Source: an uncultured Nocardioidaceae bacterium
GTDB lineage: Bacteria; Actinomycetota; Actinomycetes; Propionibacteriales; Nocardioidaceae
Assembly: GCA_902805855.1 (NCBI GenBank)
Contig: CADCUJ010000038.1
Span: forward strand, 1 to 38,145
Length of the DNA: 38,145 nucleotides
Reading direction: 5' to 3'
Shown here one piece after another: positions 3,509-11,927 of this stretch. The notes beneath the pieces are model-generated. The model saw nothing but the letters and a program-made list of their open reading frames with translations. It did no database searches and was not told where the DNA came from. Each line of letters opens with the position of its first letter. Positions within the stretch are counted from its first letter, which is position 1. A program made the position numbers and the translations under genes.

Positions 3509-4240
3509 ATGGCGAAGTCGAAGTCGAAGCAGTTCCGTAGGCAGGCCAACCAGCTCAGCCGCAGCCTTGCCCTCCAAGTGGAGTCTGCCCGGGACAAGGC
3601 GGGGCCAGTGATCGCCGACGCGCGCGACAAGGCAGCCCCGGTGATCGCCGACGCCCGCGACAAGGCAGCCCCGGTGATCGCTGACGCCCGCGACAAGGCG
3701 GCCCCCGCGATCGACACTGCCAAGGACAGGTTCAACAGCGACGTACGCCCGAAGATCGCGGCTGCCGTGGTGGCCGCCGGCGAGGCGACCGAAGACGTCC
3801 GTGGCGAGGCCAAGAAGCGGGGCCGGGCGACCGCCGCGGCGCTCAAGGGTGAGGTCGACCCACCGAAGCAGACCCATCGCCTACGCAGGTTCCTGGTCTT
3901 CACCGGTCTCACCGCGATCGGGGCACTGGTCGCGAAGGCGTTGTCGGACCGCAAGTCGAGCACGGCGTGGCAGTCCTCGTACGAGCCCAGCCCGGCATCT
4001 TCGGATGCGGCGCAATCAACTGGGACGTCCGCGGACAGCGCTCCGGTGAGCCCGGCCACGACGGCTCTTTCGGACCCGACTCCGGCAGCCACGTCGGCGG
4101 CGGCCGCGAGCGGGATCGCCGGCGACGACGAGGGCGCCGCGGGGCCTGACGAGGCAGCGGCAGACGCGGCCGACGTGCCTCACCCGGCCACCACACCCGA
4201 CGAGCCGGCCGAGGAGATCAAAGTCAACAAGGACAGCTAG
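3509..4240 (+). CDS. Repeat-containing single-pass membrane protein, function unknown
   Basis: 243 residues from ATG 3509 (MAKSKSKQFRRQANQL), preceded by GAGAGGA about 11 bases upstream. I do not recognise a named family. The N-terminal half is basic and predicted helical, with four 11-residue repeats of the form RDKAAPVIADA (residues ~28-71). A Lys/Arg-rich stretch follows, then one hydrophobic segment (FLVFTGLTAIGALVAKAL, about 131-148), and an acidic Ala/Ser/Pro-rich C-terminal tail. The repeats resemble amphipathic, apolipoprotein-like or LEA-like helices that could lie on a membrane surface; that is inference. A longer form from GTG 3428 is possible. The gene is divergent from ppiA and convergent with the acyltransferase gene. 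Confidence 0.75.
   Translation: MAKSKSKQFRRQANQLSRSLALQVESARDKAGPVIADARDKAAPVIADARDKAAPVIADARDKAAPAIDTAKDRFNSDVRPKIAAAVVAAGEATEDVRGEAKKRGRATAAALKGEVDPPKQTHRLRRFLVFTGLTAIGALVAKALSDRKSSTAWQSSYEPSPASSDAAQSTGTSADSAPVSPATTALSDPTPAATSAAAASGIAGDDEGAAGPDEAAADAADVPHPATTPDEPAEEIKVNKDS
3590..3721 (+). repeat. 33-bp tandem repeat, four units, coding
   Basis: Four 33-bp units beginning CGSGACAAGGC start at 3590, 3623, 3656 and 3689. The middle two are nearly identical and the outer two have diverged. Each encodes an 11-residue helix repeat (RDKAxPxIxDA). The 11-residue period fits three helical turns. Confidence 0.9.
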
Positions 4241-5341: not shown

Positions 5342-6168
5342 CCGAGATGCTCCTCGAGGTAGCCGACCGAGGCGTCGTAGGCCGCGTCGATGCGTCCCTC
5401 CACGGCGGCGAAATCGCGGTAGGCCAGCAGGGAGTCGAGCCGGGCCGAGCCGCCGCCGGTCGGAAGTACGTGGGCGGTGACGTGGTCCGGCAACGCCGCC
5501 ATCTCGCGGTGGAACCGGTGTCGCCGGGCGATCTCGAAGGAGACCCGGGCCACTTCCCAGGGCTTCGTCGGCGGTCGCAGTACCCGGTCCACCCGGCCCA
5601 CCTGGAGCACGAAGATCCGCTCGGCCCCACACTCGACTGCCCGGCCGACCGGGATCGAGTTGACGATCCCGCCGTCGAGGAAGTGCTCGCCGTCGACCCT
5701 GGCGGGCCGCAGCAGCCCGGGGACCGCGGCCGATGCGACCACGGCGTCGACCACCCGGCCTTCGGTGAACCAGTGCTCCGCGGCTCGCTCGATGCTCGCG
5801 GCGCAGCACTGGAACGGGACGGCGAGCTCGTCGAACCTCCGCTCACCGAGCAGCTGGTGCAGCCGTTCGCGCAGCGGCTTAGCCGAGTGCAGATGGGTGC
5901 CGGTGCGCACGGCACGGGTCACCTGGCGCACCGCTCCGTCGCCGTACACCTCCTTGCTGGCTGCGGCGCTCTGCCACAGCGACACCAGCCTTCCGATGAC
6001 GTCGAGTGAGGGGTCCGCGGCGACCAGGGCGCCGTTGAGCGCGCCGACGGAGGTGCCGAGGACGAGGTCCGGCCGGATCTCCGCCTCCAGGAGCGCCCGG
6101 AGCATCCCCACCTCGGCCGCGCCGAGTACGCCTCCGCCGCCGAGTACGAACGCGGTCGGCCTGCTCAT
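5338..6168 (-). CDS. Patatin-like phospholipase (RssA-type)
   Basis: 276 residues from ATG 6168, which overlaps the DUF3817 stop as ATGA. Patatins are Ser-Asp dyad lipid acyl hydrolases. The oxyanion loop GGGGVLG (10-16), the nucleophile elbow GTSVG (Ser40) and LDGG with the catalytic Asp at 165 are all present, so it should be active. There is no signal peptide or membrane helix, so it probably acts at the inner face of the membrane. An open frame continues upstream through the 21-bp repeat to 6423, but the conserved patatin start (RPTAFVLGGGG) and the ATGA overlap favour 6168. Confidence 0.93.
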   Translation of the reverse strand: MSRPTAFVLGGGGVLGAAEVGMLRALLEAEIRPDLVLGTSVGALNGALVAADPSLDVIGRLVSLWQSAAASKEVYGDGAVRQVTRAVRTGTHLHSAKPLRERLHQLLGERRFDELAVPFQCCAASIERAAEHWFTEGRVVDAVVASAAVPGLLRPARVDGEHFLDGGIVNSIPVGRAVECGAERIFVLQVGRVDRVLRPPTKPWEVARVSFEIARRHRFHREMAALPDHVTAHVLPTGGGSARLDSLLAYRDFAAVEGRIDAAYDASVGYLEEHLG

Positions 6169-6587
6169 CTCGGTTCGGTTGAACGTGCCCTCGCGCCCGT
6201 TGAACTTGGCCCCGTGCCGGTTGAACTTGGCCGCGTGCCCGTTGAACTTGGCCCCGTGCCGGTTGAACCCATCTCCAGGACTCGGCGCGTAGCACGCCGC
6301 TCGGCCCAGAAGGACAGGATCGGCACTGTGCCGGAGACCAAGGTGACGATCGTGAACCGAAGGTCCCAGTTCGCCTTGCGCGAGAGTACGAAGGCCGCGA
6401 CCAGGAAGATCATGTAGAGCCACCCGTGGGCGACGCCGAGGTACTGCGAGATGCCGTCGCCGATCGCCTCGGCCTGGCTTCCGTCCGGCGACAGGTAGTG
6501 CAGCGGGAGGCCGATCAGGACCAAGATGATCAACAGGACCCCGACGACGGTGGCCATGACCCGGTAGGCGAGGAGCGGGGTTCTCAC
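6165..6587 (-). CDS. DUF3817 family integral membrane protein
   Basis: 140 residues from GTG 6587, overlapping the SURF1 stop as GTGA. Residues ~8-105 match the DUF3817 layout: a first helix (VMATVVGVLLIILVLIGLPLHYL), then YLGVAHGWLYMIFLVAAFVLS and a third helix (IVTLVSGTVPILSFWAER). The family has no defined reaction. The C-terminal 30 residues are seven-residue STGTGPS repeats encoded by the 21-bp DNA repeat at 6178-6268, so the tail looks like a repeat expansion added to a normal ~105-residue protein. It lies between SURF1 and patatin with 4-bp overlaps on both sides. Confidence 0.88.
   Translation of the reverse strand: MRTPLLAYRVMATVVGVLLIILVLIGLPLHYLSPDGSQAEAIGDGISQYLGVAHGWLYMIFLVAAFVLSRKANWDLRFTIVTLVSGTVPILSFWAERRATRRVLEMGSTGTGPSSTGTRPSSTGTGPSSTGARARSTEPR
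6178..6268. repeat. 21-bp tandem repeat cluster A (five unit starts)
   Basis: GTTGAAC recurs at 6178, 6199, 6220, 6241 and 6262, spaced by exactly 21 bp. A complete unit begins GTTGAACTTGGCC and ends CGTGCCG on the plus strand. The cluster lies inside the 3' end of the DUF3817 gene and directly upstream of the patatin start. It is related to cluster B at 8439 in the opposite orientation (16 of 21 positions identical between the closest units). Confidence 0.92.
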
Positions 6588-8259: not shown

Positions 8260-8304
8260 GACGTGTCTCCTTCGGTTCGCTCACGCGAGGATGTCGGGGT
8301 CGGG

Positions 8305-8378
8305 TGGGCCTAAGTGGACTTGAACCACTGACCTCTTCCTTATCAGGGAAGCGCTCTAACCGTCTGAGCTATAGGCCC
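8305..8378 (-). tRNA. tRNA-Ile (anticodon GAT)
   Basis: 74 nt, minus strand. Acceptor GGGCCTA pairs with TAGGCCC, the D arm contains AGCTCAGACGGTTAGAGC, and the anticodon loop CTGATAA gives GAT (Ile). The T arm has GGTTCAAGTCC. No encoded CCA. It precedes DLW-39 and tRNA-Ala in the direction of transcription. Confidence 0.97.
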
Positions 8379-8438
8379 GAAGCGCGGCGTTGCCGACGGG
8401 GCAGATTACCTCATGGCGCAGATGCCGCCCAAACGCCG

Positions 8439-8530
8439 ATCTCCACCGGCCGGACGCCCATCTCAACCCGCGCGAGCCCCATCTCAACCCGCGCGAGGCC
8501 CATCTCAACCGGCGCGGGCCCCATCTCAAC
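8439..8530. repeat. 21-bp tandem repeat cluster B (five unit starts)
   Basis: ATCTCMAC recurs at 8439, 8460, 8481, 8502 and 8523 with exact 21-bp spacing. On the minus strand the units begin GTTGAGATGGG and continue with CG-rich bases. The cluster fills the interval between the DUF3566 stop (8545) and tRNA-Ile (8378). It is the inverted relative of cluster A at 6178. Confidence 0.92.
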
Positions 8531-8544
8531 GAAGGAGGAGGGGG

Positions 8545-9213: not shown

Positions 9214-11927
<2,714 letters not shown>

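Follow-up and report, generated by a model that had tools for sequence, protein, structure and literature searches.

Plasmid-type iterons are head-to-tail sites about two helical turns apart at the origin, and the mycobacterial MIRU are tandem intergenic minisatellites (VNTR) of actinobacteria. The repeat arrays described here share with plasmid iterons the head-to-tail two-turn spacing, but are distributed chromosome-wide, away from a single origin. Likewise, they resemble MIRU-type VNTRs in forming tandem intergenic arrays in actinobacteria, but have a much shorter unit, one unit family common to dozens of loci and a defined array start. REPs, which bear a conserved GT(A/G)G head, and the REP/BIME systems with RAYT (PMC2817692) correspond to the present arrays in being short extragenic repeats with conserved head, species-specific body and oppositely oriented clusters. 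Palindromes and a link to a known transposase characterize REPs, the best known of the dispersed extragenic repeats in bacteria. The present family has neither; it lacks a palindromic or stably folding unit as well as a Y1 transposase in the array-bearing genomes, and its direct repeats are strictly phased at 21-22 bp. The nearest described class is that of the small dispersed repeats (SDR; PMC2884548), with similar unit length of about 20 bp, dispersal, variable copy number and suspected mobility. The present arrays differ by their occurrence in Actinobacteria, fixed polarity, pyrimidine border, terminal unit and near absence of single units, as well as by many species-specific bodies on one head and a bias toward gene 3' ends. 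A literature search retrieved no matching actinobacterial family of 21 or 22 bp, which is weak evidence of novelty as subscription journals were sparsely covered.

The array that led to this family, cluster B, is located in a 38,145-nt stretch of DNA from an uncultured Nocardioidaceae bacterium (the window). The features relevant at this locus and at the related cluster A are:

8426..8530, minus strand: cluster B tandem array of 21-bp units with GTTGAGATGGG core; good units at 8510-8530, 8489-8509, 8468-8488 and 8447-8467, degraded unit at 8426-8446
8531..8544, minus strand: pyrimidine border CCCCCTCCTCCTTC, separating the first cluster B unit from the DUF3566 stop codon
8545..9213, minus strand: DUF3566-type membrane protein gene (name taken from the preliminary description)
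8303..8378, minus strand: tRNA-Ile (GAT), downstream of cluster B
6178..6276, plus strand: cluster A, diverged member of the cluster B family (GTTGAACTTGGCCCCGTGCCG); four units at 6178-6261 and a partial fifth to about 6276
6165..6587, minus strand: small membrane protein gene (DUF3817-type, named by inspection), with cluster A at its 3' end on the opposite strand

Read on the minus strand, the good units of cluster B are GTTGAGATGGGGCCCGCGCCG, GTTGAGATGGGCCTCGCGCGG, GTTGAGATGGGGCTCGCGCGG and GTTGAGATGGGCGTCCGGCCG, with GTGGAGATCGGCGTTTGGGCG as degraded fifth, and TRF calls an array at 8425-8530 with period 21 and 5.0 copies. The preliminary description had five units in exact 21-bp phase filling the gap between the DUF3566 gene and tRNA-Ile at 8439-8530; array and 21-bp phase are indeed present there, but four good units plus a degraded one occupy 105 of the 166 bp, and the true span is slightly larger. 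The first unit of the array follows the stop codon of the DUF3566-type gene at a distance of 14 bp, on the same strand. Besides the two tRNAs, no Rfam match above the gathering score was obtained. Cluster A falls within the final codons of the small DUF3817-type gene and takes the place of the protein's C-terminal tail. As previously proposed, the two arrays are inverted relative to each other, and recomputation gives 16 of 21 matching positions for the best pair of units.

In the fragmented assembly of the window's genome (2.64 Mb, 113 contigs), the exact core GTTGARMTKGG occurs 150 times, compared with a single match of the reversed-pattern control, and two cores in 21-bp register are found 85 times versus none in the control. 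Matches thus exceed the expectation from base composition, and the postulated dispersed family withstands this profile search. Among 57 relatives, the two cores in this register were not found at all. By Blast and chain search on fetched stretches, about 48 array loci were located on some 40 contigs, mostly intergenic, in agreement with the earlier idea that selection is on DNA rather than protein, or else with transmission at the DNA level. The number of units per array is between 2 and 7, mostly 3-7 with a mode of 3-4; only 2 of 45 arrays consist of two units, and single units are nearly missing. The spacing from one GTTGA to the next, counted in the array loci of this genome, shows 121 cases at 21 bp and no more than 8 for any of the remaining distances within 40 bp. 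Contig ends carry several of the arrays, which fits repeats that break assemblies, and unit numbers may be wrong at these positions because of the fragmentation. Contig C35 ends in an array with the same 3' flank as the array on C68 (L062:5145 and L075:3333), probably an assembly effect of the repeats.

The anatomy of the arrays was compared with that in a same-genus genome of four contigs (G003), of which 1.2 Mb were fetched. Each array begins at G1 of GTTGAG, usually directly after a pyrimidine-rich tract. The pyrimidine fraction in the 10 nt ahead of the first unit amounts to 0.79 in both genomes (matched background 0.50-0.60), and tracts with at least 90% pyrimidine precede 28-37% of the arrays but follow only about 1% of ordinary stop codons. 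The opposite end is defined as well, since terminal units have a consensus of their own, often ...GGGCCTCCGG in the window's genome and ...TTCCGG in G003, where first units favour GTCACTCGT and later ones GTCAGTCGT. This difference between first and last units was reached by none of 500 within-array order permutations in either genome. Units are only slightly more similar within than between arrays, so that the arrays did not arise by recent amplification of a single local unit. RNA folding of the units was no better than that of shuffles in the window's genome, G003, G354 and G029; the same comparison gave no indication of an imperfect palindrome per unit, and RNA secondary structure was dismissed as a conserved feature.

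The G003 family consists of 22-bp units, GTYGAG[AG][CG]GTCA[CG]TCGT..GGC, and was detected by TRF without use of the GTTGA motif. Searching the 1.2 Mb with its profile yielded 104 units versus 1 in the reversed sequence, organized in 30 arrays with only 2 singles, and the GTTGA-GTTGA spacing peaks at 22 bp while that of a control word is flat. Body and period differ from the family in the window's genome; GTTGAG head, pyrimidine border and polarity are common to both. A third body, GTYGAGACGCGC..TTTTC.CC, is present in the likewise congeneric G001. In total, GTTGA recurring with a period of 21-22 bp was found in 27 of 120 genomes of the bacterial family, representing 10 of 26 sampled genera, with strong dispersed array families in G027, G029, G034, G735, G745 and others, and also in the more distant G354. 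The congeneric G002, by contrast, gave no match to this pattern. The resulting cross-species consensus is GTTGA[GC]NNG... with the remainder free; head conservation in these relatives is partly circular, as GTTGA was in the search pattern, and evidence independent of the pattern comes from the window's genome and G003. Equivalent arrays thus differ by species, and from these comparisons the elements look fast-evolving. Head, phase, border and polarity stay fixed while the rest turns over even between congeneric species, so that the copying of arrays to new sites and a possible use of multi-site arrays for ending genes become testable in relatives. Such arrays could also be of use as strain markers and account for contig breaks in assemblies of this kind.

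Two other leads were pursued and abandoned. An actinobacterial repeat, GTTGAGC(Y)TGTCGAAAC, was present in tandem in only 1 of 296 genomes of the class, and a G003-type array did not match any plasmid, speaking against plasmid spread.

From the left window edge on, the gene neighbourhood is nearly all syntenic in G003, comprising patatin-like, SURF1-like, tRNA, DUF3566 (67% identity for the DUF3566-type ortholog), gyrA-like and gyrB-like genes (names by inspection). At the sites corresponding to clusters A and B, however, G003 has no array, and none was present at any other array locus of the window's genome for which both flanks could be anchored within the 1.2 Mb. For one of the loci (L054), a later search put the right-hand anchor elsewhere, an earlier one having placed the left side together with the adjoining tRNA. 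Due to these empty sites, the arrays look like lineage-specific gains, in a comparison that draws on the syntenic sites of one sister genome and for which, at individual loci, array loss from G003 is the alternative. For cluster B, the gain is resolved by alignment against G003, and 9 bases of its border have no counterpart at the aligned site. At L092, the net gain is about 105 bp, corresponding to five units, in frame and near a gene start, whereas at L065 the position of the ancestral stop codon is taken by the first GTTGA. Compared with the empty site, the window's genome has an extended pyrimidine tract in all five alignments that could be judged, which suggests, on this small sample, that the tract may arrive together with the array. 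With a DNA identity of only about 73-88% in the flanks, exact insertion junctions are rarely resolved.

Hence, cluster B is probably one copy of a lineage-specific, dispersed group of small, polar tandem-array elements that are likely mobile and act at the DNA level. Mobility here refers to dispersal and empty sites, as neither a target-site duplication nor a moving enzyme was found. The element would be a ready-made array with fixed polarity and a unit length of 21 bp (22 bp in most relatives), in the order pyrimidine-rich tract, units starting with GTTGA(G/C) and terminal unit with its own consensus. It would be gained by insertion of the whole array beside pyrimidine tracts and not by growth from single units. 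Action as DNA is suggested by RNA folding no better than in shuffles and by tolerance of both coding and non-coding sites. The two-turn spacing would set the GTTGAS heads on one face of the helix, fitting head-to-tail binding of one putative protein.

The placement of the arrays relative to genes is likewise not random, although single placements can be wrong as genes were called by a simple codon-usage script. In sense orientation within 40 bp behind a stop codon are 24 of 29 arrays in G003 (83%), all 7 intergenic arrays in G354, 4 of 7 in G029 and 16 of about 35 intergenic arrays in the window's genome, while the null for this placement is 0.08-0.12 (12% for G003, 0.12 for the window's genome). 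The bias toward gene 3' ends already considered in the preliminary description is thus strong in G003 and G354 and moderate in the window's genome. At 16 arrays, the gene ends precisely on the TGA of the first GTTGA, and at no array does it end on that of a later unit. The window's genome has, in addition, 18 arrays that occupy 5' ends and point away from the gene, and 7 that are located within genes. Arrays inside genes are missing in G003, possibly because 22-bp units shift the frame and 21-bp units keep it.

This placement is also what would be expected if the arrays were working 3'-end punctuation, with one sense array per gene at which a predicted protein stops RNA polymerase behind the gene, or with an action in the 3' UTR. 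The use of the first TGA as stop codon and the preference of neighbouring arrays for facing each other (9 inward versus 1 outward in G003) are compatible with such a role. However, the arrays at 5' ends and in genes do not fit, sister sites lack the array, the sense RNA folds no better than shuffles and, hence, does not form an intrinsic terminator, and in G003 the hairpins at convergent gene ends free of arrays exceed those following arrays only slightly in strength. Punctuation as the primary explanation is, therefore, regarded as possible but rather doubtful. A more elaborate version, similarly tentative and if anything slightly less probable, is a so far undescribed gene-end punctuation system of actinobacteria in which at least three GTTGAS sites in two-turn register, in sense directly behind stops, are bound by a predicted co-evolving protein blocking transcription, and whose arrays might undergo wholesale gain and replacement from one sister species to another with head and border persisting.

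The mutual orientation of the arrays deserves mention. Neighbouring arrays within 3 kb in G003 comprise, besides the inward and outward pairs given above, 2 with the same direction; the number of pairs was not reached in 20,000 random placements, and strand permutation gives 5e-5. Inward-facing partners are 26 bp to about 1.5 kb apart and enclose ordinary genes, and the inverted A/B pair is one case of this general excess. Inward facing far above chance is seen in G003 (L211-L217, L279-L318) and in the window (6178/8530), with partners that are not mutual copies. Paired arrays are no more alike than unpaired ones, and inverted duplication was rejected as source of the pairs.

Inward pairs at such distances could also bound transposons or gene cassettes on either side. 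This is very improbable, however, as the interval between clusters A and B contains tRNAs and genes mostly syntenic in G003, where the arrays are missing, as the inner genes of G003 pairs include the housekeeping PRA-CH and acVLRF1, and as the partners lack the increased similarity just mentioned.

Marginally less credible still is a REP-like nature of the arrays, with mobilization by a Y1 (RAYT) transposase. The arrays are short and extragenic and have a conserved head with a species-dependent body, as have REPs with their own GT(A/G)G head, but their units do not fold better than shuffles. Moreover, among 120 family genomes only two encode the transposase domain PF01797, and these two lack a clear array family; the domain is absent from the window's genome, G000, G001, G003 and G012. 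Missing from array-bearing genomes, the Y1 transposase of REPs was discarded as array mover.

Replication iterons, as implied by the term iteron-like in the preliminary description, or chance and coding repeats may be practically disregarded, for although head-to-tail direct repeats of 21-22 bp have iteron-like size and cluster A is within an ORF, this reading is refuted by dispersal over the roughly 48, mostly intergenic loci and by 150 versus 1 control matches. Altogether, the preliminary interpretation is partly supported.

Similar head words also occur outside the bacterial family. The exact double core of the window's genome is not found in viral contigs, where the GTTGA 22-bp pattern gave 45 stretches, nearly all AT-richer and with unrelated bodies. 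In several of the AT-richer viral contigs (L231, L233, L238, L239, L255), an 11-bp unit close to GTTGAACGTCC forms arrays, some of which follow a TTGGTTATTGGTTG-like sequence; these combine the same head word with a one-turn period in other hosts. Another array, GTTGATTCCTCACTCCCCGAAT / GTTGATTTTGAAGTTCGGGGCT, recurs in viral contigs L246, L248, L249, L260, L262, L264 and L274. The sole double-core match from the genome contigs collection is a single four-unit array, GTTGAGATGGGACAGGTAAGA, in a lower-GC sediment actinobacterial MAG (L094:2647-2730), with the same 11-base core as in the window's genome.

The window itself contains three further tandem repeats, namely an 18-bp repeat at 101-178 (4.3 copies, 98% match) in a Pro/Thr-rich frame near the left end, a 33-bp coding repeat at 3587-3713 (ARDKAAPVIAD, nearly four copies) in a small ORF, and a 12-bp repeat of four and a half copies at 9285-9338 encoding the VPDE-repeat acidic C-terminal tail of the GyrA-like protein.
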